Below, piece after piece: positions 19,068-62,438 of a stretch of 64,000 bases of DNA. Positions within the stretch are counted from its first letter, which is position 1; each line of letters starts with the position of its first letter. Source of the stretch: Maribacter vaceletii (GTDB lineage: Bacteria; Bacteroidota; Bacteroidia; Flavobacteriales; Flavobacteriaceae); NCBI RefSeq assembly GCF_003634105.1, contig NZ_RBIQ01000007.1:496001-560000 (forward strand), written 5' to 3'. Below the pieces are notes generated by a model, which was not told where the DNA came from, searched no databases, and saw only the letters and a list, made by a program, of their open reading frames with translations. The position numbers and the translations under genes were made by a program.

Positions 19068-22000
19068 ATGCTTATGAAATTAGTAAAGTTTATTAAAAAG
19101 AAATGCCAACCGCGCACTTTTCTACTTGCACTATTTTGGATTGCAAGCTCATCATTGGGACTTGCACAAGATAGTACAATTAGCGGAACGGTTAATGACA
19201 ACACAGGGCAACCACTACCAGGTGCCAATGTTTTGGTAAAAGGAACTACCAATGGAACACAAACAGATTTTGATGGTAATTTTACACTTAATGCTCCAAG
19301 TAATGGGACAATATCTGTAAGTTATATTGGATTTGTAACCCAAGATGTAGCAATTAACAACCAATCCACTTTTACAATAACCCTAGAAGAAGATGCTAGC
19401 CAACTTGATGAGGTTGTTGTTGTTGGTTATGGTTCGCAAAAGAAATCAGATTTAACTGGTGCTGTAGCAAGCGTAGGTAGTAAAGATATTGACAAATATA
19501 CTTATACGAGTGCTGCAAATGCCTTACAAGGAAGAATGGCTGGTGTTAGAGTACAATCAAGTGGTGGTGCTCCTAACGGTAGCCCAAATATTGTTATTAG
19601 AGGAAGTGGAACACTATCAGATGCAGGACCACTTTATGTAATAGATGGTATGATTACTGGAAATATGAATACACTTAACCCTGCCGATATTGAATCTATA
19701 TCTGTCTTAAAAGATGCTTCCGCAAGTGCAATTTATGGTTCTCGTGCAGCAAACGGAGTTGTAATTGTAACGACTAAAAAAGGGCGCGACGGAAACGTTA
19801 GTATCGATTTTGAAACTAGTGTTGGTGTAAATAAAGCTATCAATGAATTAAATTGGGCGAATGCTAGGCAATATGCTGATATTGTAAATATGGCGAATGA
19901 TAATGACGGGTTACCAAGATATCCTGCTAACGATACGCAGTTTGACCCAAACTACTCCAGTGATTTGTACGGAGAGTCATTACGTAGCGCCACTGTTATA
20001 AATACAAGTCTTAGATTGTCAGGAGGTTCAGAAAATTTAAGATATAGTCTTTCCATGAATAATTTTGATAATGAAGGTGTTGTTAGGTATTCAGATTTTA
20101 AAAGAACTACAATTAGATCAAATGTTAATTTCTCAAAAGGAAAGTTTAAATTGGATAATACTATTGGTTTAAATAAAACAGTTAATAATCCAAACCCTTA
20201 TTTTGGTAAGGAAAGGAATATGGTTCCAACTATTCGTTTAAGAGATAATGAAGGTAATTGGAGTGTAGATGATAGAGCTGTTAGAGGTATAACCGATACA
20301 TTTAGTAACTTTTACGGTGTAAGTACAAATAATACCAGACATGAACTTGCGGAAGCAGCTTTAGAAGATAGAACTATTACTAGATACACTGCTATTGGAA
20401 ATATAGCGGCTTCATATGAGTTTTTTGATGGACTTACCTATAAAATTAATGGAGGGTTAGAATATTATTCTGACAATAATTATAAGTTTACGCCAACGTA
20501 TCCACTAATCCCAAACAATAGTGGTGGTTTTGATTATCAAAATACTGCTGGAGGTTTAAGAGAAACTAATACAAATTTTATCTCAACATTATTAGAGCAT
20601 ACTTTAAATTATAAGAAAACTTTTGGAAAGCATACAGTTGATTTATTAGGTGGTTTTTCAGAGCAAATTAATAAATCAAGATCTTTAGGTATAGTAGCCA
20701 CAGGTTTTGTTGATGAAAACGTAAGAGTAGCTTCTGCTGCCAGCAACTTGGAACAAGCACCACAGCAAGATAGAACAAGTTCACTTCAGTCTTATTTTGG
20801 AAGATTCAATTACAATTTTGATGACCGCTATTTGTTAACTGCTACGCTTCGTAGAGATGGTTCTTCATTATTTAGAAAAGAATTACAATGGGGTACCTTT
20901 CCATCTTTTGCAGTAGGTTGGAATATTAGTAATGAAAAGTTTATGGAAGATGTAACTTCAATTACTGATATAAAACTTAGAGGAAGTTATGGGGAAATAG
21001 GTTCTAATAATGTAGCAATATATTCTATAGATCCATCACTAAACTTATTTAGTACATATGTTCTTGGTACAGGGGATCAGCAAAGAGTTGATGGTTATGC
21101 TATTACAAATGGTGTAAATGCAAATATTATTTGGGAGACAACAAAAACGACAGATGTAGGATTAGAATTTAGACTTTTAGATAGTAGATTAGGAGTTACT
21201 TTAGATTATTTTATAAAAGATTCTGAAGATGTATTAGTAAGTTTAGACCCGGCTTTTTACACTGGATTTGGTAATACTATTCCAGAGAATTCAGCAAGTA
21301 TTAGGAATAAAGGTTTTGAATTCACAGCCAATTATTCAGGTAATGTTGGAGAATTGGGATTCAATGTTTCGGCTAATTTTTCTACTTTAAATAATGAAGT
21401 AACCTCATTAGGAGCTAGAGGAACTCCAGTTATTGCAGGATCTTTCACATCAAATACTATCAACTCAACAAAAACGGATATAGGTCATCCAATTTCTTCA
21501 TTCTTTGGTTATATCGTTGATGGAATTTACCAAACGGATGCTGAGGCTGCTGCAGCTAATGATACTGGAGGAAACCAAGTAGCTGGTGATTTAAAATTCA
21601 AAGATATTGCGGGCCCTGATGGTAGTGCTCCTGATGGTATGATTGATGAGAATGATCAAACATTTATAGGGAACCCAACTCCTGATTTTGAATATGGAAT
21701 TAACTTAGCTTTAGATTATAAAAACTTTGATTTAAACCTATTTTTTAATGGAGTTTCTGGAAATGAAATATTAAATGGATCTAAGTATAGAGGAATTTTT
21801 GATACAGATGGAAACTATTTAACGGATGCTTTAAACGCATGGACACCATCAAACACAGACACTAACATTCCTAGAATGACACAATTAGACCAAGGTAATA
21901 ATAGAAGAATGTCTACATTTTATTTAGAAAATGGTTCTTTTTTCCGTTTAGCAAATGCTCAAATAGGATATTCTATTCCAAATCAAATTCTGGATAAAAT

Positions 22001-22190
22001 AAATGTTAGTAAGATAAGATTATTTGTTTCTGCTACCAACTTGTTTACTATTACTGATTACACAGGATATTATCCAGAGGTAGGAAACAATAGCCGTACA
22101 GGTTCTGTTAGATTATTTAACTCAGGGGTTGATGAGGCCGCTTATCCAACACCAAGAACATTTCAGGCTGGTTTACAGGTGTCGTTTTAA
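19068..22190 (+). CDS. SusC-like TonB-dependent outer-membrane transporter 1
   Basis: A 1040-residue receptor that forms the outer-membrane pore of a glycan importer, opened by TonB. In order: signal peptide (about 1-34), carboxypeptidase-regulatory-like domain (about 37-113, SGTVNDNTGQPLPGANVLVKG), the DEVVVVGYG box at about 114-122, plug domain (about 120-235, ending SAIYGSRAANGVVIVTTKKG) and a long beta-barrel ending in a C-terminal Phe (QAGLQVSF). The ATG at 19074 (MKLVKF) could equally be the start. SusD1 follows after 15 bp. It is a paralogue of the receptors at 35582 and 48828; the first two share the TNGTQTDFDGNFT stretch. Confidence 0.96.
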   Translation: MLMKLVKFIKKKCQPRTFLLALFWIASSSLGLAQDSTISGTVNDNTGQPLPGANVLVKGTTNGTQTDFDGNFTLNAPSNGTISVSYIGFVTQDVAINNQSTFTITLEEDASQLDEVVVVGYGSQKKSDLTGAVASVGSKDIDKYTYTSAANALQGRMAGVRVQSSGGAPNGSPNIVIRGSGTLSDAGPLYVIDGMITGNMNTLNPADIESISVLKDASASAIYGSRAANGVVIVTTKKGRDGNVSIDFETSVGVNKAINELNWANARQYADIVNMANDNDGLPRYPANDTQFDPNYSSDLYGESLRSATVINTSLRLSGGSENLRYSLSMNNFDNEGVVRYSDFKRTTIRSNVNFSKGKFKLDNTIGLNKTVNNPNPYFGKERNMVPTIRLRDNEGNWSVDDRAVRGITDTFSNFYGVSTNNTRHELAEAALEDRTITRYTAIGNIAASYEFFDGLTYKINGGLEYYSDNNYKFTPTYPLIPNNSGGFDYQNTAGGLRETNTNFISTLLEHTLNYKKTFGKHTVDLLGGFSEQINKSRSLGIVATGFVDENVRVASAASNLEQAPQQDRTSSLQSYFGRFNYNFDDRYLLTATLRRDGSSLFRKELQWGTFPSFAVGWNISNEKFMEDVTSITDIKLRGSYGEIGSNNVAIYSIDPSLNLFSTYVLGTGDQQRVDGYAITNGVNANIIWETTKTTDVGLEFRLLDSRLGVTLDYFIKDSEDVLVSLDPAFYTGFGNTIPENSASIRNKGFEFTANYSGNVGELGFNVSANFSTLNNEVTSLGARGTPVIAGSFTSNTINSTKTDIGHPISSFFGYIVDGIYQTDAEAAAANDTGGNQVAGDLKFKDIAGPDGSAPDGMIDENDQTFIGNPTPDFEYGINLALDYKNFDLNLFFNGVSGNEILNGSKYRGIFDTDGNYLTDALNAWTPSNTDTNIPRMTQLDQGNNRRMSTFYLENGSFFRLANAQIGYSIPNQILDKINVSKIRLFVSATNLFTITDYTGYYPEVGNNSRTGSVRLFNSGVDEAAYPTPRTFQAGLQVSF

Positions 22191-22205
22191 CATAAAAAAA
22201 TAATT

Positions 22206-23762
22206 ATGAAAAAAATAAATATAAAATTATCAATTACTACTATGTTTTTTCTAAGCATAGTAGGTATTGTGAATATTAATTGTTCTGATGATGTATTAGA
22301 ACAAGTGAACCCTAATGTTATTACGCCATCGGGCTTTTGGAAAACACCAGAAGATGCTAAAAAAGGCATAATAGGAGCGTATGCACCATTTACAAATATC
22401 TGGTATTATACTAGATTTGAAATTTTTACAAGTGATTATAGAGATGATTTAGTAAATGGGTTTAATGTGTCTGAAAGAACTGCTGTTGGTCGTTTTGGTG
22501 GTACACCAGGTGCTAATGGAACTATATGGGTTTGGAGAGCAATGTTTCAAGGTGTAAATAGAGCAAATGAAGTTATTTTTCATGTGCCTAACATAGATAT
22601 GAATGCAACAGATAGAGATAATATAGTAGGTGAAGGTTATTTCATAAGAGGATTTAATTATTTCAACTTATTAAATAACTGGCTAAATGTTCCTTTGATT
22701 ACATCTCCTATTTCAGAAATTGAAAAGCCTAGTGAAATCCTTCAAGCACCACCGGCAGATGTTTGGGCTCAAGTTGAGGCAGATTTAAAGCAAGCTCAAC
22801 AATTATTACCTGCGTCATGGCCTGATAGTGAATTAGGTAGAGTAACATCTGGAGCAGCAACAGGAATGTTAGGAAAAGTGTATTTATATCAAGGAAAATA
22901 TGCGGAAGCTAAAGCTGAGTTTTCGAAAATCATGAATAGCAGTTATGAGCTTATGGATAATTATGCTCATAATTTTACTGAGGAATTTGAAAACAATAAA
23001 GAATCATTATTTGAAATTCAATTTACAGCAGATGGTATAAATGGTTGGGGAGCTGATAATGCAAACTCAAGAAAAGCTGCTGCATACACTATGGATTTAG
23101 CACCAAAAGGATTTACTGGTCAAGATGGTTTTAGAATAAATAATTGGGCTTTGGATCTCTTTTTAGATGAAAGAACAATTAATAATGAGATAGACCCTAG
23201 AGCATATACTACCTTGTTTTGGGATAATGATGAAACAACTACTTATGAAGGTAACGTATTAGCTTCAAGGACATATGAAAATAAAACTTGGGATGAAGCT
23301 TACCCTAGTGGAGATACAAATGTTTATGCTAATAAATTCTTAGATTGGGAATATAAAGGTTTTAGCGCAGCAAGTTTTAACAATTCTGGCAACAATTTCA
23401 GAGTATTGAGATATGCAGATGTTTTATTAATGTACGCTGAAGCAGAATTTATGTTAAACGGGTCTACTCAATCAGCTTTAGATGCAATTAATGAGGTAAG
23501 AGAAAGGGTAGACATGCCTGCTTTTACTACAATTACGATGCAAGAAATAGAAGAAGAGAGAATAAAGGAATTGAGTTTAGAAAAAACAAGGTACTATGAT
23601 TTGTTACGTTGGGATAAAGTAAAATCTAGAATTGTAGATAATTCGGAATTTAAATCAGAAAGTGGAGGTACAAGTGCTTATCAAGAAGGAAGAGAATATA
23701 TTGCTATTCCACAAAACGAATTAGATAGAAACCTAAATTTTAAACAAAATCCAGGTTACTAA
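22206..23762 (+). CDS. SusD-like surface glycan-binding lipoprotein 1
   Basis: A 518-residue partner of SusC1 that caps the transporter and binds oligosaccharide at the cell surface. It has a lipoprotein signal (IVNINC) and the standard SusD start EQVNPNVITPSGFWKTPEDA. TPR-type helices occur at GYFIRGFNYFNLLNNW and MLGKVYLYQGKYAEAKAEF, and the family signature RYADVLLMYAEAEFML is near the C-terminus, followed by RYYDLLRWDKV. It ends at a strong terminator (23788-23814). Confidence 0.95.
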   Translation: MKKINIKLSITTMFFLSIVGIVNINCSDDVLEQVNPNVITPSGFWKTPEDAKKGIIGAYAPFTNIWYYTRFEIFTSDYRDDLVNGFNVSERTAVGRFGGTPGANGTIWVWRAMFQGVNRANEVIFHVPNIDMNATDRDNIVGEGYFIRGFNYFNLLNNWLNVPLITSPISEIEKPSEILQAPPADVWAQVEADLKQAQQLLPASWPDSELGRVTSGAATGMLGKVYLYQGKYAEAKAEFSKIMNSSYELMDNYAHNFTEEFENNKESLFEIQFTADGINGWGADNANSRKAAAYTMDLAPKGFTGQDGFRINNWALDLFLDERTINNEIDPRAYTTLFWDNDETTTYEGNVLASRTYENKTWDEAYPSGDTNVYANKFLDWEYKGFSAASFNNSGNNFRVLRYADVLLMYAEAEFMLNGSTQSALDAINEVRERVDMPAFTTITMQEIEEERIKELSLEKTRYYDLLRWDKVKSRIVDNSEFKSESGGTSAYQEGREYIAIPQNELDRNLNFKQNPGY

Positions 23763-23787
23763 TAATCGAGAGTTAGTAATTATAATA

Positions 23788-23814
23788 GGAACCGTTTAAC
23801 AGCGGTTCCTTTTT
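23788..23814 (+). terminator. Intrinsic terminator after susD1
   Basis: A 7-bp perfect stem, GGAACCG (23788-23794) with CGGTTCC (23803-23809), and an 8-nt loop are followed by a run of T. It separates susC1-susD1 from the FG-GAP gene, which begins 21 bp later. Confidence 0.85.
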
Positions 23815-23834
23815 AATTATATTTATATTTAGCT

Positions 23835-26800
23835 ATGAAAAAGATAATTATACCTTTTATTATTTTATTTATAGTTTTTTCTTGCACTAAAGAAAGCACT
23901 ATAAATAAGCAATTTATAGCGCTAGACAATACTAAATCTGGTGTAAATTTCTCTAACAATATAGTAGAGAATGATACTTTAAACTACTTCTCTTTTCCAT
24001 ATTTATACCTTGGAGCTGGAGTATCTGTTGGAGATATTAATAATGACGGATTATCCGACATTTATTTTACAGGCAACCTTACCCCTAATAAATTATATCT
24101 TAATAAAGGTAATTTACAATTTGAAGACATTACAGAAAGAGCCGGTGTTGCAGGAGATAATAGATGGTATTCTGGAACTACAATGGCCGATGTAAATAAT
24201 GATGGCTTTCTTGATATTTATTTAAGTGTTTCTGGTAAGTTTAACACCACAGCAAACCAACTGTTTATTAATAATGGGGACAATACTTTTACAGAAAAAG
24301 CTGCCGAATATGGTATTGCTGATGAAAGTATTTCTATACAATCTACTTTTTTTGATTATGATAATGATGGTCTCTTAGACCTTTTTGTTGCTAACTATCC
24401 AAATGTTTTAGTAAGCATGGGCAATCGTTATTATAAAAACAAAATGAATCTTAATGCTCATGAAGATTCTGGGCACTTATACAAAAACAACGGAGACGGA
24501 ACATTCTCTGATATTACCCAGAAATCTGGGGTTCAAAATTTTGGCTTAACATTAGGTTTAGTAGCCTCTGATTTTAATAATGATGGCTTCAAAGATTTAT
24601 ATTTAAGTAATGATTTTAATGTGCCAGACTATTTATATCAAAATAATGGCGATGGTACATTTACTGAAATTTCCGAAAAAACTGTAAAACACACCTCTAT
24701 GTTTGGTATGGGGTTAGATGTTAATGATTTTAATAATGATGGTTTAGCAGATATTCTTCAGGTAGATATGACTCCATCAGATTATAAGCGCTCTAAAACC
24801 AATATGGCTAGTATGAGCCCTGAGACTTTTTATGAATCTGTTGCTTTAGGTTTTAATCACCAATACATGCAAAATTCTTTGCAATTAAACAACGGTATTT
24901 CTAGTAATAACACCCCTGTTTTTAGTGAACTTTCTAGATTTTCTAACATGTCTAACACAGACTGGAGTTGGGGAGCCTTGTTTGCAGATTTTGATAATGA
25001 TGGGTGGAAAGATGTTTTTATATCTAACGGCGTAAAAAGAGATGTAAATAATAACGATGTAAACGTAAAATATAAGTCTGAAAACATCTTTGGAGAAAAT
25101 AAAAATAAAGACTTTAGACTAATGCCTAGTACCCCTATTGGCAACTTTGCTTTTGCTAATAATAAAAATCTTTCTTTTTCTAACGTAAGTAAAGAATGGG
25201 GATTAGATACGCCAGGGTTTTCTAATGGTTTTGCCTACGCAGATCTAGATTTAGATGGTGATTTAGATTTGATTATAAATAATTTAGACACCCCAGCAAC
25301 TATCTATGAGAATAAAAATAGTAATACTAGTAATTATCTAAGAATACAACTTCAGGGAACAAAAAATAATCCATTTGCTTTGGGAGCAAAGGTTATTATT
25401 AATGAAAATAGGGCAAAACAAAGTCAAGAATTAACCCTAACAAGAGGATATCAATCCAGTGTTGAACCCATTGTACATTTTGGTTTAGGAGAATCTAAAG
25501 AAAAAAATACTATTAAAGTTATTTGGCCCAATGGAAAAATACAAGTTCTAGAAAATGTAACTCCAAATCAGCTTCTTCTAGTAAAATATGATTCGCTAAA
25601 AAATACTTTTATACCTGAGGCTAAAAAGAAAAATAATTTTGTAGATATTTCTAATAAAATTACACCAAGTTTTAAACACAATGAAGATGTTTATGATGAT
25701 TTTAAAACAGAACCTTTATTACCTCACAGATATTCTCAACTAGGAGCAAAAACAGCAGTAGGAGATGTAAATTCAGACGGATTAGAAGATTTTTTTATTG
25801 GTAATGCAAAGGGGAGTTCTGGTGCTATGTATATTCAAAATAAAAATGGAGAATTTACATTAGAAACTGGTCCCTGGGAACAAGATTCACAATATGAAGA
25901 TACTGGCGTATTACTTTTTGATGCCGACAATGATAAAGATTTAGATTTATATATTGTAAATGGCGGTAACCATACTTCTATCAGCCCAGATTACTACCAA
26001 GACAGACTTTATATAAACACTCCTACTGGTTTTATAAAAAGCACAAGAACACTTCCCAAGATAACCGCTAGCGGACAGGAAGTTATTAGTGCAGATTACG
26101 ATAATGACGGAGATTTAGATTTGTTTATAGGAGGAAGAGTTGTACCAGGAAAATATCCATTTCCTGCAGAAAGTTATATTCTAAGAAATGATGGCGGTAA
26201 AGATTTAGAAGCAAGATTTACAAATATTACAAGTAAAATAGCACCTGAACTTTCTAAACCAGGAATGGTCACTTCTGCTATTTGGGATGATTTTGACAAT
26301 GACAATAAAATAGACCTAATAATAACCGGAGAATGGATGCCTATAAGGTTCTTTAAAAACAATGGGGAGATTTTTAAAGAAGTAACAAATGATTTAGGCT
26401 TCACGAACACCACAGGGTGGTGGTATAGCTTACAAAAAGTAGATATTGATGCAGATGGTGATATGGATTATTTTGCAGGAAACCTTGGACTAAACTATAA
26501 GTATAAGGCCAGTAAAAAAGCCCCTTTTGAGGTATTCGCAAATGATTTTGACGAAAATGGAAGTATGGATATTGTTTTAAGCTATAAAAAATACGGAACA
26601 CAATTACCTTTACGAGGAAGAGAATGTTCCTCGCAACAAGTGCCTGCTATAAAAAAAAGATTTGAAACTTTTGAGTCTTTCGCAAACGCAGATTTAAATG
26701 ATATATATGGAAAAAAAATGCTGGAGTCCTCTTTACACTATCAAGCGCAAACCTTTGCTCACCAATGGATAGAAAATTTGGGAGACGGCAACTATAAAAC

Positions 26801-27122
26801 TCATAAACTTCCAAATAGAGCGCAGACTTCTTCTATAAATAAATTTCATATTTTTGACTATAATGGAGATAAATATCCCGATGTTATATTGGCAGGTAAT
26901 TTATACCAATCTGAAGTAGAAACCCCCCGTAATGATGCTAGTATAGGATTAATTCTTATAGGAAATGCAAAAGGCTACTCTATTGTTTTACCCGAAGAAA
27001 GTGGTTTATTCTTAGGCGGAGATATTAGAGATATTACTTCTATTAAAGTAGCTGCTGATGAAAAATCATCTTTTTTAATAGCAAAAAACAATCAAAATTT
27101 ACAATTGTTAAACCATAACTAA
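23835..27122 (+). CDS. FG-GAP/VCBS-repeat lipoprotein with UnbV (ASPIC) domain, 1
   Basis: A 1095-residue lipoprotein (IVFSC near residue 17). It contains about fourteen calcium-binding FG-GAP loops of the form D-x-N-x-D-G-x-x-D, for example DINNDGLSD, DVNNDGFLD, DYDNDGLLD, DFNNDGFKD, DVNSDGLED and DYDNDGDLD, arranged in two blocks. Between them (about residues 500-575) is a UnbV/ASPIC domain ending in IKVIWPNGKIQVLENV. This predicts two propellers on the outer surface. Such proteins often follow SusC/SusD pairs in Flavobacteriia; no enzymatic role is established, and polysaccharide binding or adhesion is a guess. A close paralogue of the same layout is at 40417. Confidence 0.88.
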   Translation: MKKIIIPFIILFIVFSCTKESTINKQFIALDNTKSGVNFSNNIVENDTLNYFSFPYLYLGAGVSVGDINNDGLSDIYFTGNLTPNKLYLNKGNLQFEDITERAGVAGDNRWYSGTTMADVNNDGFLDIYLSVSGKFNTTANQLFINNGDNTFTEKAAEYGIADESISIQSTFFDYDNDGLLDLFVANYPNVLVSMGNRYYKNKMNLNAHEDSGHLYKNNGDGTFSDITQKSGVQNFGLTLGLVASDFNNDGFKDLYLSNDFNVPDYLYQNNGDGTFTEISEKTVKHTSMFGMGLDVNDFNNDGLADILQVDMTPSDYKRSKTNMASMSPETFYESVALGFNHQYMQNSLQLNNGISSNNTPVFSELSRFSNMSNTDWSWGALFADFDNDGWKDVFISNGVKRDVNNNDVNVKYKSENIFGENKNKDFRLMPSTPIGNFAFANNKNLSFSNVSKEWGLDTPGFSNGFAYADLDLDGDLDLIINNLDTPATIYENKNSNTSNYLRIQLQGTKNNPFALGAKVIINENRAKQSQELTLTRGYQSSVEPIVHFGLGESKEKNTIKVIWPNGKIQVLENVTPNQLLLVKYDSLKNTFIPEAKKKNNFVDISNKITPSFKHNEDVYDDFKTEPLLPHRYSQLGAKTAVGDVNSDGLEDFFIGNAKGSSGAMYIQNKNGEFTLETGPWEQDSQYEDTGVLLFDADNDKDLDLYIVNGGNHTSISPDYYQDRLYINTPTGFIKSTRTLPKITASGQEVISADYDNDGDLDLFIGGRVVPGKYPFPAESYILRNDGGKDLEARFTNITSKIAPELSKPGMVTSAIWDDFDNDNKIDLIITGEWMPIRFFKNNGEIFKEVTNDLGFTNTTGWWYSLQKVDIDADGDMDYFAGNLGLNYKYKASKKAPFEVFANDFDENGSMDIVLSYKKYGTQLPLRGRECSSQQVPAIKKRFETFESFANADLNDIYGKKMLESSLHYQAQTFAHQWIENLGDGNYKTHKLPNRAQTSSINKFHIFDYNGDKYPDVILAGNLYQSEVETPRNDASIGLILIGNAKGYSIVLPEESGLFLGGDIRDITSIKVAADEKSSFLIAKNNQNLQLLNHN

Positions 27123-27210: not shown

Positions 27211-27942
27211 ATGTTTTCACCTGTAGGAAATTCAAAGTCATTATCGCAACAAATTGAAGAGAAAATAACAGAAGCGATACGTAACGGACAATATCTTCCA
27301 GGTCAAAAAATACCAACAGAAAAAGAACTTTGTGAAATATTTAAAGTTAGTAGAACCGCGGTAAGAGAAGCTATAAAAACTTTGGCTGCTCGCGGCATTA
27401 TTGTTGTAAAAAAAGGGAGTGGCGCCTATGTGTCTGAAGTAAGTATACAAAATGCATCCGAAAGTTTAAATATGTTTTTTGAACTTTCCTCTAACAAAGA
27501 TTTAATCTTACAGACTATTAAAACTAGACAATTAATAGAACCTATTATTGCATCAGAAGCTGCAAAACATAGAACTAAAAAACATATTACTTTACTTCAA
27601 AAAAATCTTGAAGACATAAAAAAATGTGATTTATTAGATTCTAAAACTGAGGCCGAATTAGATAATGCATTCCACAAAATTCTTGTTTCCATACCGCAAA
27701 ATAATATTTTAGAACTTTTATTAAGTCCTATCTTTAATCTTATGCCAAAATTTAAAGAAAGTGTTTTTGCAAAACCTACTGATGGGGATTTACTTAAAGA
27801 AAAAGAAATGATGATAATTCATCATAGTAATATATTAAATGCCATCATAGATCAGAATGGAAATTTAGCATCACAATCTATGAAAAACCATTTAGCAACA
27901 ACACATGCTAATTATATTAAATCACAAGCATTAAAAAAATGA
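27211..27942 (+). CDS. GntR-family transcription regulator, FadR/FCD subgroup
   Basis: A 243-residue regulator. The N-terminal winged helix-turn-helix (about 10-75) contains PGQKIPTEKELCEIFKVSRT then AVREAIKTLAARG, followed by a beta-wing (VVKKGSGAYVSE). The all-helical FCD effector domain covers about 85-235. Its stop overlaps the start of the galactonate dehydratase by 4 bp (ATGA), so the two are translationally coupled. Relatives next to dgoD genes (DgoR-type) respond to galactonate; the same effector is plausible here but not shown. Confidence 0.92.
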   Translation: MFSPVGNSKSLSQQIEEKITEAIRNGQYLPGQKIPTEKELCEIFKVSRTAVREAIKTLAARGIIVVKKGSGAYVSEVSIQNASESLNMFFELSSNKDLILQTIKTRQLIEPIIASEAAKHRTKKHITLLQKNLEDIKKCDLLDSKTEAELDNAFHKILVSIPQNNILELLLSPIFNLMPKFKESVFAKPTDGDLLKEKEMMIIHHSNILNAIIDQNGNLASQSMKNHLATTHANYIKSQALKK

Positions 27943-29096
27943 AAGACCTAAAGATTGAAAAAATAGAACTCTTTAAAGTCCCTCCTAGATGGTTATTCTT
28001 AAAAATAACTACCAAATGTGGTATTATAGGTTGGGGAGAACCCGTTGTAGAGGGCAAAGCAGATACTGTAGCTGCTTGTATTAAAGAACTAGAACAATAT
28101 ATAATCGGTAAAGATGCTAGTGCTATAGAAGATATATGGCAAATACTCTATAGAGGTGGTTTTTATAGAGGCGGCCCTATTTTAATGAGTGCCATATCTG
28201 GTATAGACCAAGCATTATGGGATATTAAAGGAAAACACTTAAATGTTCCTGTACACCAATTATTAGGAGGTGCTGTTCGTAACAAAATGAAAATGTATTG
28301 TTGGATTGGTGGAGATAACCCAGACGTTATCTTAGAACAAGCACAAGAAAAGGTAAACGCTGGTTACAAAGCTGTTAAAATGAATGCCACAGGTGGCATG
28401 GAATGGGTTTCTTCTTTAAAAGATATAAAGACTGTTTCTAATAACATTAAATTGTTAAGAGAAGAATTTGGGTATAATTTAGATATAGGTTTAGACTTTC
28501 ATGGTAGGGTTCATAAGCCTATGGTTAAAAAATTAATATCAGAGTTAGAGCCTTATGAACCCATGTTTATTGAAGAACCTGTTTTAAGTGAAAACAATGA
28601 CGCTTTAAAACACATATATTCTTATACTAATATTCCTATTGCAACTGGGGAACGTATGTTTTCTAGATGGGATTTTAAAGATATTTTACACCAAGGTGTT
28701 GTTGATATAATTCAACCAGATTTAAGTCATGCTGGTGGTATTTCTGAAGTAAGGCGTATTGCTGCAATGGCAGAAGCTTATGACATAACGCTTGCTCCAC
28801 ACTGTCCTTTAGGACCTATCTCTTTAGCCTCTGCTCTACAAGTAGATTTTGTTTCCTCTAATGCAATTATTCAAGAAAGCAGCTTAGGAATACATTACAA
28901 CCAAGGCTGTGACCTTTTAGATTATATGGAAAATCCTGAGGTTTTTAACTTAGAAGATGGTTACATTAAACTTTTAGAAAAACCTGGTTTAGGGGTAGAT
29001 ATTAATGAAGAAAAACTTCGTGAAGGGAATAAAATAGGTCATAATTGGTCTAACCCTATTTGGCGTACTAAAGATGGTAATTTCTCGGAATGGTAA
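27939..29096 (+). CDS. dgoD: D-galactonate dehydratase (enolase superfamily)
   Basis: A 385-residue cytoplasmic enzyme that converts D-galactonate to 2-keto-3-deoxy-D-galactonate. Similarity to the Enterobacteria DgoD is evident over the full length: PPRWLFLKI near the start, FYRGGPILMSAISGIDQALW, GLDFHGR with metal ligand Asp186 and catalytic His188, FIEEPVL (Glu212), TGERMFSRWDF (Glu238), LAPHCPLGP with catalytic His288, and LGIHYNQG. Length is normal for the family. It is coupled to the GntR gene and followed 40 bp later by the sulfatase-lactonase fusion, which suggests an oxidative route for galactose or a derivative. No galactose dehydrogenase is present in the window. Confidence 0.92.
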   Translation: MKDLKIEKIELFKVPPRWLFLKITTKCGIIGWGEPVVEGKADTVAACIKELEQYIIGKDASAIEDIWQILYRGGFYRGGPILMSAISGIDQALWDIKGKHLNVPVHQLLGGAVRNKMKMYCWIGGDNPDVILEQAQEKVNAGYKAVKMNATGGMEWVSSLKDIKTVSNNIKLLREEFGYNLDIGLDFHGRVHKPMVKKLISELEPYEPMFIEEPVLSENNDALKHIYSYTNIPIATGERMFSRWDFKDILHQGVVDIIQPDLSHAGGISEVRRIAAMAEAYDITLAPHCPLGPISLASALQVDFVSSNAIIQESSLGIHYNQGCDLLDYMENPEVFNLEDGYIKLLEKPGLGVDINEEKLREGNKIGHNWSNPIWRTKDGNFSEW

Positions 29097-29136: not shown

Positions 29137-31425
29137 ATGTCAAAAAAAATTAAAACTTATTATATAAGTTGTGTAGTACTTTTTGGTTTTCTTCTAATTA
29201 GTTGTGCTCCAAAAGTTACTGCTCAAAAAGAAAACAAAAAACCAAATATTATTCTAATAATGTTAGATGATTTAGGTTCCGAAGCTATTGGAACATACGG
29301 TGGCACATCTTACAAAACACCTAATTTTGATAAACTTGCTGCAACAGGCATGCAATTTAACCAAGCATATGCACAACCGCTTTGCACACCTTCTCGTGTA
29401 AAAATAATGACTGGAAAATACAATTTTAGAAACTGGGAGGCCTTTGGAATTTTAAATAAAAAACAAAAAACTTTTGGTCATTTAATGCAAGATGCTGGCT
29501 ATGCAACATGTATGGTAGGCAAATGGCAATTACAAAGCTATGACCCTGAAGATTATCCGGGATCCGAATTTAGAAGAGGTACTGGAATGAAAGTAGAAGA
29601 TGCTGGTTTTGATGAATATAGTATGTTTCATGCATTACATACGGAAGATAAAGGCTCTCGTTTTGCAGACCCTACTATTTATCAAAATGGAGCTTATTTA
29701 AAAAATACAAAAGGTAAATATGGCCCAGATATATTTTCTGACTACTTAAATGAATTTGTAAACAAACAAAAAGACAAGCCATTTTTTGTGTATTACCCTA
29801 TGGCGCTTACACATGACCCCTTTTCCCCTACCCCAGATAGTGATATTTGGAAAGAGGAAGAAAGAAGATTAGATGATGACCCTATATATTTTAAAGATAT
29901 GGTTGTTTATTCTGATAAAATTATAGGGAAAATTATAAAGAATTTAGAAGAAAAAGGAATACGTGATGAAACACTAATTCTAATTTATTCTGATAACGGA
30001 ACGCACCAAAAAATAACCTCAAAAATGGGGGATAAAACTATACAAGGCGGCAAAGGGCTAACTACAGAAAACGGAATTAAAGTTCCTTGTATTGCTAATT
30101 GGCCTGGCGTAATTAAAGAAGGTATGGTTTCTAATGAATTTATAGATGCGATAGACTTTTTGCCAACTTTATTAGATGTAAGCAAAACTCCAATTCCAAG
30201 TAATTTTAAAACAGACGGACAAAGCTTTTTACCTGTAATGAAAGGAGAACCTACTAATCGTAGAGACTGGGTTTATATTAGTTATAATCCAAAACCTGGC
30301 GTAGGAAAAGACCATTTTCATCCTGCAGAGTTTGTACTAAATGAAAATTATAAGTTATACGGCGACGGAAGGTTTTACAATATTGCAAATGATAAATTAG
30401 AAAAAGATACGCTTACCATTTCTAAGAATGATCATAAGTTAGCAAACACAAAAAAACGTTTTAATACCATAATAGATTCTCTAAAAAAATATCCTTCCTT
30501 TGGTTTTATAGAAAGATTAGACCCTTCTTTAGATACTATTATATCTAAAAATGCAAGGATAGATTTAGTTGCGGAAGGCTTTAATTGGTCAGAAGGACCA
30601 GTTTGGCAACCAAAAGGACAAAAATTATTATTCTCTGATGTTCCTGAAAACAAAATGTACCAATGGAATGATATTGATGGTCTAAGTTTATACATGTCTC
30701 CTTCAGGCTATACTGGAGATAATAAAAAAATTACTAAAGGATCCAATGGTTTAACTCTGGATCCAGAAGGTAATTTAATACTATGTCAAGTTGGGGATAG
30801 AAGAATCAGTAAATTAGTTAGTTTAAAAGATTCTTTAAATCCAGTATTTAAATCTTTAATAACCAATTACAAAGGCAATATTTTTAATTCTCCTAATGAT
30901 TTAGTTTATGACTCTAAAGGCAACCTATATTTTACAGACCCAGCCTTTGGTTTAGGAAAAGAGAAAAGTGCTATTGGTTTTAACGGGGTATACTTTTTAA
31001 GTAAAAGTGGAAAACTAACTTTATTAGATAAAAAAGTACAAGCCCCTAATGGCATAGCAGTATCTCATGATAATAAAACACTTTATGTTGCAGACTCCCA
31101 TAAAACCAAACCTTCTATTTGGGCTTATGATATTGTAAAAGACGGAAAAATAAAAAATAAAAGGATATTTTTTGATGCAACTATTCTAAGAGAAAAAAGT
31201 ATTGAGAAACAATCTCCAGACGGTATAAAAATAGATAAGAACGGGAATTTATTTTTAGCGGGGCCAGGAGGAGTTCTTATTATCTCACCATCTGGCAAAC
31301 ATTTAGGAACTATACGCACTGATAAAAATACTGGGAATTGTGAATTCACAGATGATGGCAGATTCTTGTTTATTACCTGTGATGATTACCTTTTAAGAGT
31401 TAACCTTAGACCTTATGCAAAATAA
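29137..31425 (+). CDS. Exported fusion: S1 sulfatase + SMP-30/gluconolactonase domain
   Basis: A 762-residue lipoprotein (lipobox LLISC, Cys23) with two enzyme domains in one continuous frame. Residues about 30-440 are an S1 sulfatase: IMLDDLGSE metal site, CTPSRVKIMTGKY with formylglycine precursor Cys83, GKWQLQ (a Gln where His is usual) and IYSDNGTH. Residues about 470-760 are an SMP-30/gluconolactonase six-bladed propeller: WSEGPVW (Glu486), SPNDLVYD (Asn587) and SPDGIKID (Asp695) are the three metal ligands of that family. The linker runs through a Lys-rich segment near 445-470. Lying between dgoD and another sulfatase, it could desulfate a sugar acid lactone and then open the lactone. 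The lipoprotein signal places both activities outside the cytoplasm, unlike the neighbouring dehydratase. Confidence 0.88.
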   Translation: MSKKIKTYYISCVVLFGFLLISCAPKVTAQKENKKPNIILIMLDDLGSEAIGTYGGTSYKTPNFDKLAATGMQFNQAYAQPLCTPSRVKIMTGKYNFRNWEAFGILNKKQKTFGHLMQDAGYATCMVGKWQLQSYDPEDYPGSEFRRGTGMKVEDAGFDEYSMFHALHTEDKGSRFADPTIYQNGAYLKNTKGKYGPDIFSDYLNEFVNKQKDKPFFVYYPMALTHDPFSPTPDSDIWKEEERRLDDDPIYFKDMVVYSDKIIGKIIKNLEEKGIRDETLILIYSDNGTHQKITSKMGDKTIQGGKGLTTENGIKVPCIANWPGVIKEGMVSNEFIDAIDFLPTLLDVSKTPIPSNFKTDGQSFLPVMKGEPTNRRDWVYISYNPKPGVGKDHFHPAEFVLNENYKLYGDGRFYNIANDKLEKDTLTISKNDHKLANTKKRFNTIIDSLKKYPSFGFIERLDPSLDTIISKNARIDLVAEGFNWSEGPVWQPKGQKLLFSDVPENKMYQWNDIDGLSLYMSPSGYTGDNKKITKGSNGLTLDPEGNLILCQVGDRRISKLVSLKDSLNPVFKSLITNYKGNIFNSPNDLVYDSKGNLYFTDPAFGLGKEKSAIGFNGVYFLSKSGKLTLLDKKVQAPNGIAVSHDNKTLYVADSHKTKPSIWAYDIVKDGKIKNKRIFFDATILREKSIEKQSPDGIKIDKNGNLFLAGPGGVLIISPSGKHLGTIRTDKNTGNCEFTDDGRFLFITCDDYLLRVNLRPYAK

Positions 31426-32923
31426 AAACATTGTACTATATACTATTCTATTAAGCATTTTAATTACAAGCTGTAATTCTAAAAGTAAAAATGTAGTAGA
31501 AAAAGACACCTCCCCTAATATTATTTTAATAATTGCGGATGATATGGCTTGGGATGATAGCGGCGCTTATGGACACCCAAAAATAAAAACTCCAAACATA
31601 GACAAACTTGCAAGAGAAGGTATGCGGTTTGATCAAGCTTTTTTAACAGCAAGTTCCTGTAGCCCAAGTAGAACAAGTATTATAACAGGACTATACCCGC
31701 ATAACACAAATGCGGAACAGCTACACTGGCCTTTAACACCAGATAAAGAAACATTTGTAGAAAACCTAAAAGCTTCTGGCTATTGGACTGCACAAGCAGG
31801 AAAATGGCACTTAGGAGAAGCTATCAAAGATAGGTTTAACAAAGTATATGATGTTGGTACATCTGGGTTTCAACTTGCTCCTGATGGTAAAAAAGCAATA
31901 CAAAAAGGAGATGGAAGTGGTTGTGAGAATTGGGTTCCTTTAATAAAAGAAACACCAAAAAACAAGCCTTTCTTCTTATGGCTAGCAGCTGTAGACCCCC
32001 ACAGACCTTATACAGACAGCATAATTAGTAATCCGCATGAATTAAGTGATGTTATTTTACCACCATACTTTCCAGATACTAAGGATGTTCGTGAAGATTT
32101 TGTTTATTACTATAATGAAATTACAAGGCTAGATAATTATGTTGGTGAAGTAGTTTCCCAATTAGAAAAGCAAAACCTTACTGAAAACACTTTAATATTA
32201 TTTATAAGTGATAATGGAAGACCATTTCCTAGAGATAAAACTACGTTATATGACGGTGGTATAAAAACCCCATGGATTGTTAAATGGCCTGCAAAAATAA
32301 AACCAAACTCTGTTTGCAAAAGTCTAGTTAGCTCTATTGATATTGCACCAACATTTTTAAAACTTGCTGGCCTAAAACCAAGAGAAAATTTTGAAGGTAA
32401 AGATTTTTCTAAATTACTTACTAATCCTAAAGAGAATATTAGAGATAATATTTATGCGGAGGATCATTGGCATGATTATGAAGATTATACTAGAGCTATT
32501 AGAACCAAAGAATATAAATATATAAAGAATTTCTATCCAGATTTGCCAAATACACCTTCTGCCGATGCTTTTACAAGTGGGACATTTAAAAGTATGCTAA
32601 GTTTAAAAGAAAAAGAAGAATTAAATGAAGCTCAATTAGCTTGTTTTAAAACACCAAGAGCAGTTGAAGAGCTTTATAATACTATTAAAGACCCTAATGA
32701 GTTAAACAATTTAGCACTAAAGCCTGAGTATACTAATATCTTAAAAGACTTAAGGAGCAAAATGAAAAAGACGAGAACTAGGACTAAAGACAGTCTTCCG
32801 GAATTTAGAACACCAGATGAGTTTGACAGAGTCACTGGAAAACCAAATTCTTTTAGAAAAAGGCCTAGGCCTTCTAAAAAAGAAATGACTCAGATTATTT
32901 TAGAAATGCACAAAACCAAATAA
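31415..32923 (+). CDS. S1-family sulfatase, lipoprotein
   Basis: A 502-residue sulfatase lipoprotein (ILITSC, Cys20). The formylglycine motif is CSPSRTSIITGLYPHNT with Cys82; IADDMAWDD is the first metal site, GKWHLGE the Lys-His site and FISDNGRPFPRDK the second metal site. The start LTASSCSPSR plus HNTNAEQLHWPL resembles the S1_8-type group, but this is a weak call. It overlaps the preceding fusion gene by 11 bp and ends 12 bp before a strong bidirectional hairpin. It completes the gntR-dgoD-fusion-sulfatase unit. Confidence 0.9.
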   Translation: MQNKNIVLYTILLSILITSCNSKSKNVVEKDTSPNIILIIADDMAWDDSGAYGHPKIKTPNIDKLAREGMRFDQAFLTASSCSPSRTSIITGLYPHNTNAEQLHWPLTPDKETFVENLKASGYWTAQAGKWHLGEAIKDRFNKVYDVGTSGFQLAPDGKKAIQKGDGSGCENWVPLIKETPKNKPFFLWLAAVDPHRPYTDSIISNPHELSDVILPPYFPDTKDVREDFVYYYNEITRLDNYVGEVVSQLEKQNLTENTLILFISDNGRPFPRDKTTLYDGGIKTPWIVKWPAKIKPNSVCKSLVSSIDIAPTFLKLAGLKPRENFEGKDFSKLLTNPKENIRDNIYAEDHWHDYEDYTRAIRTKEYKYIKNFYPDLPNTPSADAFTSGTFKSMLSLKEKEELNEAQLACFKTPRAVEELYNTIKDPNELNNLALKPEYTNILKDLRSKMKKTRTRTKDSLPEFRTPDEFDRVTGKPNSFRKRPRPSKKEMTQIILEMHKTK

Positions 32924-32985: not shown

Positions 32986-34509
32986 TTATTCTAGTTCAAA
33001 CTTAAAGACTGTAGCTATAGCATCCATTTTAGCATTAGGTACTGTTAACTCAAAATATTCATCATTTAAATCATAAGCAACTTCCTGCTCAGTACCTAAA
33101 AGAACTATTCTTTTTATTTTAGAATGAGGGCTGTATCTATGTTTTGCTAATAATCTTAGGTTAATTTTTTTACCAACTTCCGGTTTTCCTAAACATATTA
33201 AATATAAACTTTTTTCATCTTTAGATTGTGTAAATCTTATATCATTAGCAGTATATTTTACAGTTGCAGATTGTCCTCCAAAATGCCCTTCTCCAGCTTT
33301 TGCATCCCCAAAACCAAATAAATCCCAAGGTTTTGTATCGTAAATAGCTTCTCCATATTTTGAAAACCAATCTCCCATTTCATATAAAACTTCTCTTTGC
33401 TCCTTAGGAATACTTCCATCTGCTTTAGGAGATACATTTAATAAAACCACTCCGTTTTTGCTTACCACATCTATAAGATTTCTAATAACTAAACCTGCAG
33501 GTTTATAAGTTTGTCCCTGAATATAACTCCAAGATTTATTGCTTAGAGTAATATCTGTCATCCAAGGTCTTTCGGTAATATCTCTCCTACCCCCTTGTTC
33601 TATATCTTGTACACCAACCTCTTTTGGCAAATCCCATTGCTTATAACCAATTAAAACATCTTGGTTATTTTTCTCTGCAGTATTAAAATAATCTGCACAC
33701 ATTTGCTGCACTCTCTTCTCTGGTATAAAATTAAACCACGAATCAAACCAAATAGCATCTGGCTTATATTGCTCCACTACTTCTGTTATTTGATCAGACC
33801 AGTATTTATGAAATTCTTCGGTTGGAATATTACCATATAACTTACTTAATTCTGGATCTGTAGAGGAAGTATGATATTTAGGATTATAGGTGAAATGACT
33901 ATCAAACTTTCCCCAATTTTCTGGAGTTTTTGCATTTCTCTGTAAATTACGAGCATGATGAAATGTTGTAATTAATTTCATGTCATTTTTCCTGACCGCA
34001 TTTGCTAATTCCCCAGTAATATCTCTTTTGGGCCCTTTTTGAACAGAATTCCAAGGGTTAACTTTACTATCCCACATTGCAAAACCATCATGATGTTGCG
34101 CCACTGGCCCAGCAAATCTTGCTCCTGCACGTTTAAAAAGTAAAACCCACTCTTCTGCATCAAAATTTTCTGCAGTAAACTTTGGAACAAACTCATGATA
34201 TCCAAATTCCTCTTGAGGTCCATAATTTTTTTTATGGTACTCATATTCCTTAGTTCCTTTTATATACATTTTACTTGGGTACCATTCACTTCCAAATGCA
34301 GGAACGGAATACACCCCCCAATGAAAATAAATTCCCAATTTTGCATCTTGGAACCATTGAGGTGCCTCTTCATGTTCTGATAAGGATTCCCAATTAGCTT
34401 CATATTTCTTTTGCTCAATTACCGGTTCTTCTGTTTTATCTTTATTAGATTCTTTACAAGAATAGACCTGCAATAAAACAATAATTGTACATGTAACTCT
34501 TTTTAACAT
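32986..34509 (-). CDS. GH29 alpha-L-fucosidase family enzyme, possibly an alpha-L-galactosidase
   Basis: A 507-residue lipoprotein (lipobox LQVYSC, Cys18). GH29 marks are clear: WFQDAKLGIYFHWGVYSVP, GSEWYPSKMY, FAGPVAQHHDGFAMWDS with the paired histidines, and AIWFDSWFN, where Asp256 is the expected nucleophile. The C-terminal beta domain is present and the length is normal. GH29 usually removes alpha-L-fucose; some members from porphyran-degrading systems act on alpha-L-galactose, which would suit a galactan system better. It is the only - strand gene in this part. GGA lies shortly before the start codon on its own strand, a rather strong ribosome site for this genome. Confidence 0.9.
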   Translation of the reverse strand: MLKRVTCTIIVLLQVYSCKESNKDKTEEPVIEQKKYEANWESLSEHEEAPQWFQDAKLGIYFHWGVYSVPAFGSEWYPSKMYIKGTKEYEYHKKNYGPQEEFGYHEFVPKFTAENFDAEEWVLLFKRAGARFAGPVAQHHDGFAMWDSKVNPWNSVQKGPKRDITGELANAVRKNDMKLITTFHHARNLQRNAKTPENWGKFDSHFTYNPKYHTSSTDPELSKLYGNIPTEEFHKYWSDQITEVVEQYKPDAIWFDSWFNFIPEKRVQQMCADYFNTAEKNNQDVLIGYKQWDLPKEVGVQDIEQGGRRDITERPWMTDITLSNKSWSYIQGQTYKPAGLVIRNLIDVVSKNGVVLLNVSPKADGSIPKEQREVLYEMGDWFSKYGEAIYDTKPWDLFGFGDAKAGEGHFGGQSATVKYTANDIRFTQSKDEKSLYLICLGKPEVGKKINLRLLAKHRYSPHSKIKRIVLLGTEQEVAYDLNDEYFELTVPNAKMDAIATVFKFELE

Positions 34510-56841: not shown

Positions 56842-58074
56842 ATGATTTTAAAAACCAAAATATTTATTTATCTATCTTCGATTGCATTATTAGCTTCATG
56901 TAATTCTAATACAAATATGAACACCAACGAGAAAAATCAAAAAGAAGAATCCGTAGAAATAACAGAAGCTCAAATAGACCATTTAGGAATTACAGATGTT
57001 AATCATCTTAGCGCAGCATCTAAAAGGGCTTTAAAATGGCCTATGGATTTAGGGAATGAATGGTTTATCCAATTTGGCCCCCTACAGCCTTTAAAAGGAG
57101 ATTTAGCATATGAGGAAGGTGTGGTACGTAGAGACCCTAGTGCCATGATTAAAGAAAATGGAAAATATTATGTATGGTATACAAAAAGCACTGGCCCTAC
57201 ACAAGGCTTTGGTGGCGATATAGAAAATGAAAAAGTTTTTCCATGGGATCGTTGCGACATTTGGTATGCAACTTCTGAAGACGGAGAAACTTGGAAAGAA
57301 GAAGGTTTAGCCGTAGCCAGAGGAAAAAAAGGAGAATATGATGACAGATCTGTATTTACAGTAGAAATCATGAAACATGAAAATAAATATTATCTGTGCT
57401 ACCAAACCGTAAAGTCTCCTTATAATGTAAGAGTAAAAAACCAAGTAGGTTTGGCTTGGTCAGATTCTCCAAACGGCCCTTGGACAAAAAGCAAAGAACC
57501 TATACTTAGTCCTGCAGATAATGGTATTTGGGAAGGAGAAACTCAAGATAGATCTTTAGTAAAAAAGAAAGGGGATTTTGATAGTCACAAAGTTCATGAC
57601 CCATGTATTATTCCTTACAAAGGTAAATTCTATTTATACTACAAAGGGGAACAAATGGGAGAACAAATTACTTTTGGCGGAAGACAAATTCGTCATGGAG
57701 TAGCAATAGCTGACAAACCAGAAGGACCTTATGTAAAATCTCCTTACAATCCCATAAGTAATAGTGGTCATGAAATTTGTGTTTGGCCATACAATGGTGG
57801 TATTGCAGCTCTTATAACAACAGATGGCCCAGAAAAAAATACTATACAATGGGCTAAAGATGGTATTAATTTTGAAATAATGTCCGTTATTCCTGGTGTT
57901 AATGCACATGCAATTGGACTTAATAGAGATGCAGATAACGAAAAGGAACCAACAGAAATTCTTCGTTGGGGCTTGTCACACATATACAACAATAGCGACT
58001 ACCAAAGCATTATGAGTTATACATCTGCAAGAAAAACAAAACACGTAGCCAAAGGAGCAAAAAAGAGCAAATAA
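56842..58074 (+). CDS. GH117 alpha-1,3-(3,6-anhydro)-L-galactosidase, AhgA type, lipoprotein
   Basis: A 410-residue lipoprotein (LLASC, Cys20). It carries the full set of AhgA-type GH117 marks: the N-terminal dimer-exchange region ending SAASKRALKWPMDLGNEWF, GVVRRDPSAM with Asp98 (base), FPWDRCDIWYATSEDGETW, HKVHDPCII with Asp253, and NSGHEICVW with His310 (the unusual acid) and Glu311. These enzymes release 3,6-anhydro-L-galactose from the non-reducing end of neoagaro-oligosaccharides. This is the best single clue to the substrate of the locus. It shares its transcript with the GH2 and ends at a strong terminator. A short basic tail (KTKHVAKGAKKSK) follows the propeller. Confidence 0.93.
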   Translation: MILKTKIFIYLSSIALLASCNSNTNMNTNEKNQKEESVEITEAQIDHLGITDVNHLSAASKRALKWPMDLGNEWFIQFGPLQPLKGDLAYEEGVVRRDPSAMIKENGKYYVWYTKSTGPTQGFGGDIENEKVFPWDRCDIWYATSEDGETWKEEGLAVARGKKGEYDDRSVFTVEIMKHENKYYLCYQTVKSPYNVRVKNQVGLAWSDSPNGPWTKSKEPILSPADNGIWEGETQDRSLVKKKGDFDSHKVHDPCIIPYKGKFYLYYKGEQMGEQITFGGRQIRHGVAIADKPEGPYVKSPYNPISNSGHEICVWPYNGGIAALITTDGPEKNTIQWAKDGINFEIMSVIPGVNAHAIGLNRDADNEKEPTEILRWGLSHIYNNSDYQSIMSYTSARKTKHVAKGAKKSK

Positions 58075-60136: not shown

Positions 60137-60188
60137 AATAACAAACAAGCCAATTGCCAAAAGCAAAAGGCTATTAGCATAAAAAGAA

Positions 60189-62427: not shown

Positions 62428-62438
62428 AAACTATCAAC

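Follow-up and report, generated by a model that had tools for sequence, protein, structure and literature searches.

A conserved sulfatase–lactonase fusion of Flavobacteriaceae and its possible place in aldonate catabolism

In a 64,000-nucleotide stretch of the Maribacter vaceletii genome (Flavobacteriaceae; contig NZ_RBIQ01000007.1, positions 496,001 to 560,000), hereafter the window, a single gene encodes an S1-like sulfatase and an SMP-30/gluconolactonase propeller in one chain and follows dgoD, a gene of the D-galactonate dehydratase family. We found that this fusion is real and conserved, and that it is not explained away. As far as our searches reach, it is a new domain architecture, although both of its families and the kind of module in which it stands are already known; it was not found in the literature searched (partly by title and the start of the abstract), and the original prediction, a note made from the sequence of the window, likewise knew of no described sulfatase–lactonase enzyme. 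Our reading, to which we give a probability of about 0.6, is that the protein is exported and carries two functional active sites in one polypeptide, both serving a single route in loci that target the sulfated galactans of red algae.

These galactans form a large reservoir of marine carbon, and it is generally assumed that their galactose is imported as such. A conserved enzyme linking desulfation to the extracytoplasmic opening of an aldonolactone would mark loci in which the galactose is oxidized first.

Architecture of the fused protein

The gene and its product carry the following features (positions in the window).

29137..31425, + strand: sulfatase–lactonase fusion gene; ATG start, 762 aa, without internal stop
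29137..29205, + strand: export signal, residues 1–23, with candidate lipobox LISC (C23); read by eye
29242..30426, + strand: S1 sulfatase half, about residues 36–430; Pfam PF00884 and PF16347, Foldseek 9fo1 and 7stv
29383..29397, + strand: CTPSR, formylglycine maturation motif (Cys83); sequence and alignment
29527..29529, + strand: Gln131 in GKWQLQ, His in other S1 sulfatases; alignment
30559..31407, + strand: SMP-30/gluconolactonase propeller, about residues 475–757; Pfam PF08450, Foldseek 3dr2 and 3e5z
30592..30594, + strand: Glu486; alignment
30895..30897, + strand: Asn587; alignment
31219..31221, + strand: Asp695; alignment; Gly in a Zobellia uliginosa paralogue (L040)

The Pfam Sulfatase domain covers residues 36–348 (E = 5.8e-47, 160.9 bits against a cut-off of 25), and SGL, the SMP-30/gluconolactonase domain, covers residues 484–747 (E = 8.4e-41, 140.6 bits against 26.3). 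The AlphaFold2 model, made from a 37-row alignment, has a mean predicted local distance difference test score (pLDDT) of 89.0 and a predicted template modeling score (pTM) of 0.80. When the halves were compared with the PDB by Foldseek, the N-terminal one matched S1 sulfatases (9fo1, 7stv and others, 26–27% identity) and the C-terminal one matched the gluconolactonases 3dr2 (TMt 0.88) and 3e5z (TMt 0.89). Domain and fold agree in both halves, as a sulfatase in the first and an SGL propeller in the second. Residues were lined up with 7stt for the sulfatase and with 3e5z for the lactonase, whose Glu486, Asn587 and Asp695 we take, from family knowledge of catalytic roles, to be the metal ligands of the propeller. 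The single 762-codon frame with an S1 sulfatase and an SMP-30 domain, as the original prediction had described it, is borne out by the reading frame, Pfam and the residue check; the residue numbers given there (Cys83, Gln131, Glu486, Asn587 and Asp695) are all correct by alignment, and the structure prediction proposed there found the expected fold in each half.

The full S1 sulfate-site set includes a histidine after GKW. In the window protein Gln131 stands for this histidine, and D44, D45, R87, K129, H226, D286, N287 and K306 are present. The N-terminal half is filed here as an S1-like sulfatase by fold and domain, its activity being predicted.

How were the two halves joined? The standalone sulfatase relatives examined end in a tail of the type 'KKHPK' or 'QKHPK', a 'Y.T.G' segment precedes the propeller in three of the standalone lactonases examined, and the junction of the fusion reads '...SLKKYPSFGFIERL...' (all by eye). 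Since a standalone-type sulfatase tail meets a lactonase lead-in at this point, two nearly whole proteins seem to have been joined end to end, and we infer that these were a standalone sulfatase and the lactonase of a lactonase–dgoD module. Blocks of residues 421–490, the junction region, reach a pLDDT of 86–92 in the model.

N-terminal signals were observed in the fusion relatives examined. The lipoprotein signal of the original prediction stands for the window protein, where LISC is a candidate lipobox; it does not extend to the fusions at large, because the Arenibacter protein (L037) has an ordinary-looking signal without a lipobox (by eye). What the relatives examined appear to have in common is thus an export signal, not a lipoprotein signal.

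Distribution, origin and loss

We collected 18 distinct full-length fusion proteins from 17 genomes (34 rows before duplicates were merged), two of them in one genome, and the carriers belong to Maribacter, Zobellia, Arenibacter and other Flavobacteriaceae. The family search found full-length fusions at 12 places in at least 11 of 397 genomes, the window's own included, and in the genome collection 9 of 18 loci were fusions, from an uncultured Maribacter, Zobellia (6 places in 5 genomes) and Arenibacter (2). Among the matches listed by the phylum search (395 genomes, E 1e-60), the fusion occurred only in two members of the window's family, G000 and G001. Because the family and phylum searches each scored no more than two candidates per genome, these counts are lower bounds. 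The plasmid search yielded no full fusion, and the one plasmid record with more than 80% of the query in one place holds two separate genes.

Could an assembly or sequencing error have joined two genes? We found no evidence in support of this, and 18 distinct full-length copies in 17 independent genomes of several genera rule out a misassembly as well as a frameshift or stop between the domains; we regard the chance of an artefact as negligible. The search for the two-domain architecture elsewhere, which had been suggested as a check, thus showed it to be recurrent.

Twelve residues (D44, D45, C83, R87, K129, H226, D286, N287, K306, E486, N587 and D588) are kept in all 18 fusions, and all three propeller ligands are present in 17. 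In the remaining one, the Z. uliginosa C3R17 paralogue (L040:10001-12286), Asp695 is replaced by Gly and the sulfatase is kept; no aldonate gene was seen near it (locus L055). The S1 maturation motif is CxPxR or CxAxR, and we also observed a CTNTR variant, with Asn at residue 85 in the numbering of the window protein, where Pro or Ala is usual.

On the sulfatase tree (41 rows), the fused sulfatases form one clade with 100/100 support. On the lactonase tree (49 rows, with five of the 34 standalone-lactonase loci left out: L044, L045 and L047–L049), the 18 fusion halves and two sulfatase-less members form one clade, again with 100/100 support. The fusion label needs three changes on this tree, and we read from the trees that the fusion was gained once and that the sulfatase half was lost twice.

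One of these losses has left a trace in the DNA. In another genome of the genus (G775, locus L076), the lactonase is 84% identical and lies beside dgoD (90%) in a locus syntenic with the window (SusC–SusD–FG-GAP–GntR–dgoD–lactonase–TPR gene, then GH2–GH117–IclR–ADH (alcohol dehydrogenase)–KduD–AldA). Its lactonase protein of 414 aa begins with an N-terminal signal and a 47-residue stub, which aligns to residues 26–72 of the window protein with a score of 122, compared with a best score of 47 among 1000 shuffles, and which continues into the linker and the lactonase. At the DNA level, positions 31–212 and 1308–2289 of the fusion gene are matched, and the ~1.1 kb between them is deleted. A stub and a deletion in a syntenic locus indicate that the lactonase was retained beside dgoD upon the loss of the sulfatase. 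The same locus also lacks the second sulfatase, the GH29 gene and the next SusC/SusD set of the window. The other sulfatase-less lactonase (G017, contig C7; L051) adjoins a dehydratase relative and an aldolase of the 2-keto-3-deoxy-6-phosphogluconate (KDPG) type; no sulfatase stub was seen there, and the loss is read from the tree. With the lactonase kept after two sulfatase losses, and the sulfatase kept after the ligand loss in L040, the two halves appear to be separable, neither needing the other.

Gln131 was another possible peculiarity of the fusion, and the original prediction had taken it as a hint of an unusual substrate. All 18 fusions have it, and so do all of the nearest standalone sulfatases aligned (21 rows, 19 distinct places). 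In a wider tally, sulfatase rows were grouped by the window sulfatase to which they are nearest. Gln was found in 49 of the 50 rows in the group of the fused sulfatase (the remaining row is without the GKW motif) and in no row of the other groups; in the window itself, His takes this position in both of the other sulfatases that have a GKWxL motif. Standalone GKWQL sulfatases of Bacteroidota (for example, L052, L053 and L016) are the closest that we found to the fused sulfatase, at 42–49% identity and with the same Gln, and they differ from it in having no lactonase. As the nearest standalone sulfatases have the residue in common, it is nothing special to the fusion but the mark of a wider group. 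It was therefore rejected as a mark of the fusion, and the hint of an unusual substrate was not sustained.

Link to aldonate catabolism

As aldonate genes we counted dgoD, its relative MRMLE2, 2-keto-3-deoxygluconate (KDG) kinase, KDPG-type aldolase and the GntP/DgoT-type permease. They lie close to the fusion in 7 of 17 wide-flank loci (the window, L033, L037, L083, L084, L085 and L086), the eighteenth locus, L006, being left out of the count for its flanks of only 1.5 kb. By comparison, they are near the standalone GKWQL sulfatases in 0 of 22 loci (Fisher p 0.001, a guide only, given the relatedness of the rows and the shorter sulfatase loci, most of which span 15 kb versus ~20 kb). The arrangements vary; in Arenibacter (L037), the order is fusion–second sulfatase (Sulf2)–GntR–KDG kinase–aldolase–dgoD–GntP. 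In the window, dgoD ends 40 nt upstream of the fusion start codon, and its product scores 631.8 bits against the NCBIfam galactonate dehydratase model PRK14017 (cut-off 311). DgoD has no evident signal sequence at its N-terminus (by eye), which agrees with the cytoplasmic location predicted for it originally.

Furthermore, 22 genomes of the family have a close dgoD orthologue. In 14 of them this gene has, on the same strand and no more than 1.6 kb away, either an SMP-30 lactonase (11) or the fusion (3), and in 9 of the 11 lactonase cases the gap is ~1.5 kb, with room for one permease gene, as in L057. A close dgoD orthologue occurs in 6 of 11 fusion genomes versus 16 of 386 others (Fisher p 5.5e-6, for genomes that are related and counts among the matches listed). 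Five of 34 hand-picked standalone-lactonase loci (L051, L056, L057, L058 and L111) lie beside aldonate genes, in a set that missed many lactonase–dgoD pairs. Another unfused relative (L105) adjoins a gluconokinase–6-phosphogluconate dehydrogenase fusion gene and a GntP permease relative. We also observed an unfused counterpart at L058:8072-12679, where a second sulfatase (59–60%), a DUF6786 protein, a lactonase (45%) and a KDPG-type aldolase are adjacent.

Elsewhere in the window genome (contig C1:580241-584368, L079), genes for a permease, MRMLE2, a KDG/KDGal-type kinase and a KDPG-type aldolase stand in a row. The permease belongs to the D-galactonate-transporter family TIGR00893 (413.8 bits, cut-off 395) and the aldolase to eda, TIGR01182 (164.6 bits, cut-off 156.05); the pfkB-like kinase just before the aldolase is 60% identical to the Arenibacter kinase and stays below the cut-offs of the kinase models that it matches best. 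The window genome thus holds both a galactonate dehydratase and a KDPG-type aldolase, as the De Ley–Doudoroff route requires. Taken together, the aldonate neighborhoods, the co-occurrence with dgoD and the L079 genes make it plausible that a lactone is opened outside the cytoplasm and that the aldonate is then imported. The idea that a sugar is oxidized before uptake, put forward in the original prediction, gains from the aldonate link, the export signal and the permease and dehydratase genes; its sulfated lactone as the substrate does not.

Genomic context and candidate lactone-making enzymes

The neighboring genes of the window are listed below.

27939..29096, + strand: dgoD, D-galactonate dehydratase family (enolase superfamily); profile match
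27211..27942, + strand: GntR-family regulator, overlapping dgoD; profile match
31415..32923, + strand: Sulf2, second S1 sulfatase, overlapping the fusion end; Pfam
32986..34509, − strand: GH29 (alpha-L-fucosidase family); Pfam
19068..27122, + strand: SusC, SusD and an FG-GAP/UnbV_ASPIC protein, upstream of the fusion; Pfam
56842..58074, + strand: GH117-type 3,6-anhydro-L-galactosidase, filed as GH43 by Pfam; 3p2n, 795.7 bits
14728..16044, + strand: protein closest to 4u6d (686 bits), also 4u6b, and more distantly to GH117 enzymes; GH43 by Pfam; similarity
59120..63893, + strand: zinc alcohol dehydrogenase, KduD-like dehydrogenase, sulfatase and aldehyde dehydrogenase; profile matches

Of the 18 fusion loci, 11 have Sulf2 next to the fusion. 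Judged by its similarity to 5xd7 (619 bits), the enolase-superfamily gene with which the window ends (L078:2-1054) encodes a 3,6-anhydro-L-galactonate cycloisomerase, and together with the alcohol, KduD-like and aldehyde dehydrogenase genes it presumably forms the anhydro-L-galactose route. The GH117-like gene, the cycloisomerase and this dehydrogenase set indicate that the locus probably serves agar/porphyran-type galactans. The fusion region of Z. uliginosa DSM 2061, the sole Zobellia locus extended, has several sulfatases and two proteins with GLAA-B domains, which we take to be of the GH110 type, and it too looks like a galactan locus. A GH2 gene adjoins the fusion in Z. barbeyronii (L034), and similar genes are found in L036, L039 and L041 and not in L038.

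Several other neighbors were noted. Large FG-GAP/UnbV_ASPIC proteins (23835-27122 and 40417-43758) adjoin SusC/SusD pairs in the window, and likewise stand beside several fusions elsewhere. A 720-aa protein with no Pfam match lies between sulfatase genes at 6964-9126 and has a 37% relative at L083:17547-19646. In two Arenibacter and one Zobellia, a 612–614-aa gene (L039:8169-10010, L035:8175-10013 and L037:8169-10013; a PhoD-like phosphatase by Pfam in L039) overlaps the fusion start by 4 bases. A FucP L-fucose permease (over the cut-off) is near the fusion in G129 (L084:2643-3959), and an L-fuconolactonase relative (under the model cut-off) in G036 (L086:14520-15347).

Where would the lactone come from? 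A GSDH-type dehydrogenase with a neighboring cytochrome c is present on contig C6 of the window genome. Among the 13 genomes tested for dehydrogenases (12 fusion carriers and G775), 10 have strong GSDH matches (436 bits or more), two have weak ones (G774 and G036) and one has none (G002); Gluconate_2-dh3 genes occur in 12, with none in G036, and at three places in the window genome. No lactone-making enzyme was recognized beside the fusion in the window, the GSDH and Gluconate_2-dh3 candidates all lying outside it. A GSDH of the pyrroloquinoline quinone (PQQ) type is therefore not supported as the universal lactone maker. The placing of standalone SMP-30 relatives beside PQQ dehydrogenases was dropped, because the 739-aa neighbor in L043, the one of this size that was read, has a start resembling that of a sulfate permease (by eye). 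Alternatively, the lactones may come from the medium. In the Z. uliginosa fusion region, L136:15061-17333 encodes a glucose–methanol–choline (GMC) oxidoreductase with a Gluconate_2-dh3 small subunit, a candidate extracytoplasmic sugar dehydrogenase.

Discussion

How might the fused enzyme work? We suggest that the N-terminal half would remove sulfate from galactose-type sugars or short oligosaccharides, and that the metal-dependent propeller would open an aldonolactone, most likely D-galactono- or D-glucono-lactone, supplied by a putative oxidation step. Once imported by a DgoT-type or GntP-type permease, the aldonate would yield pyruvate and glyceraldehyde 3-phosphate through the successive action of DgoD, a kinase of the KDG/KDGal type and a KDPG-type aldolase. 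Both halves would serve one route, not necessarily the same molecule.

Both halves look constrained, with a ratio of nonsynonymous to synonymous divergence (dN/dS) of 0.04–0.16 in the sulfatase half and 0.03–0.20 in the lactonase half (14 pairs, pairwise, by our own Nei–Gojobori script, in which pairs with saturated dS yield no ratio). On the other hand, several observations weigh against the proposed enzyme. In about half of the pairs dS exceeds 1.5, so that those ratios are rough. In five of the 18 fusions (L008, L009, L010, L011 and L013), the maturation motif reads CTNTR and not CxPxR; the remaining catalytic residues are retained. Aldonate genes are missing from the vicinity of the fusion in ten of the 17 loci, including all six wide-flank Zobellia loci; three of those Zobellia genomes or genus mates (G001, G236 and G388) hold dgoD elsewhere. 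No dgoD orthologue was found at E 1e-120 among the best four candidates per genome in G017, G036, G169, G213 and G246, and, at the same thresholds, 29 of the 34 loci picked by hand for a standalone lactonase have no aldonate gene beside it. Finally, no tested dehydrogenase is common to all carriers.

Might one half be inactive, the sulfatase half being a relic or a binding domain? Such a case would fit the replacement of His by Gln131, the CTNTR motif of 5/18 fusions and the loss of the whole half in two lineages. However, dN/dS is low in the sulfatase half, even between CTNTR members (0.07–0.11 at dS 1.75–2.8, rough), all other catalytic residues are kept and the same Gln is found in the nearest standalone sulfatases, and we consider inactivity quite improbable. 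A different case is that of gluconate, in which the lactonase and DgoD would serve D-gluconolactone and D-gluconate and the sulfatase would be an unrelated passenger. It draws on a laminarin-induced unit of Zobellia galactanivorans, for whose DgoD the authors favor gluconate (PMC5613140), and on the gluconokinase–6-phosphogluconate dehydrogenase gene and GntP permease beside the unfused relative in L105. DgoD may be active on gluconate; yet the window protein scores 631.8 bits, over the cut-off, against the galactonate dehydratase model versus 259.4 bits, under the cut-off, against the bifunctional gluconate/galactonate model, and the window and Z. uliginosa fusion loci resemble galactan loci. 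A gluconate route is a real, if minority, possibility.

It is also possible that both halves act on one sulfated lactone, which would be either a galactonolactone bearing sulfate or an aldobionolactone whose opposite end is a sulfated sugar. The end-to-end joining without a flexible linker, at the high pLDDT of residues 421–490, agrees with such coupled catalysis, as does the absence of the second sulfatase, too, from the G775 locus that lost the sulfatase half; in addition, a lambda-carrageenan locus is reported to encode sulfatases whose substrates are individual sulfated galactoses (PMC12549532). However, the lactonase was kept after sulfatase loss in two lineages, L040 lost a lactonase ligand and kept its sulfatase, and no lactone-making enzyme was recognized beside the fusion in the window. 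The evolutionary separability of the halves argues against their strict coupling on one sulfated aldonolactone, which we hold to be unlikely. Consequently, of the original prediction that the fusion processes a sulfated aldonolactone in the periplasm, the exported two-domain protein and the aldonate link stand, and a sulfate on the lactone itself is no more than possible.

We therefore keep to an exported enzyme whose two active sites serve one route. If it were a true sulfo-aldonolactone hydrolase, one protein that desulfates and opens the lactone of a periplasmically oxidized sulfated galactose or of the reducing galactose of a sulfated disaccharide, which is unlikely, galactan-degrading flavobacteria would import galactonate, not galactose, and bypass the Leloir route. 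Within one genus, the same locus occurs naturally both with the sulfatase half and without it, which gives a concrete handle for testing.

Comparison with known systems

Each half has known single-domain counterparts. The exported gluconolactonase XC5397 (3dr2) and the putative gluconolactonase 3e5z resemble the C-terminal half in fold and ligands at 25–27% identity, and the S1 carrageenan sulfatases (S1_16, 9fo1; S1_19, 6psm and 9hh2) and the Pedobacter protein 7stv resemble the N-terminal half in fold and most catalytic residues at 24–27% identity. The sulfatases are without a lactonase half, and 7stt/7stv and 9fo1 have GKWHL. On the plasmid NZ_CP119798.1 of the archaeon Halomontanus rarus, sulfatase and SMP-30 genes lie ~1 kb apart on one strand; unlike the fusion, they are two separate genes, with 24.9% identity.

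Polysaccharide utilization locus (PUL) 7 of Pseudoalteromonas carrageenovora contains a D-galactonate dehydratase and a sugar lactone lactonase in a carrageenan locus with sulfatases, which the authors read as De Ley–Doudoroff genes; in the part of the paper available, the lactonase and the sulfatases are listed as separate genes (PMC6262041). A close parallel is ZGAL_587-589 of Z. galactanivorans, where gluconolactonase, GntT1 and dgoD form one laminarin-induced transcriptional unit. Its authors propose that a periplasmic gluconolactonase opens the lactone, that GntT1 imports the aldonate and that DgoD, which would rather convert gluconate, dehydrates it (PMC5613140). The unit is likened to the fusion modules by description, having a lactonase near dgoD and the same proposed order of opening, import and dehydration, and it differs in its laminarin induction and in that no sulfatase is mentioned in the available part of that paper (PMC5613140). 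The lactonase–GntT1–dgoD unit is thus already known, and the new part is the sulfatase in front of it.

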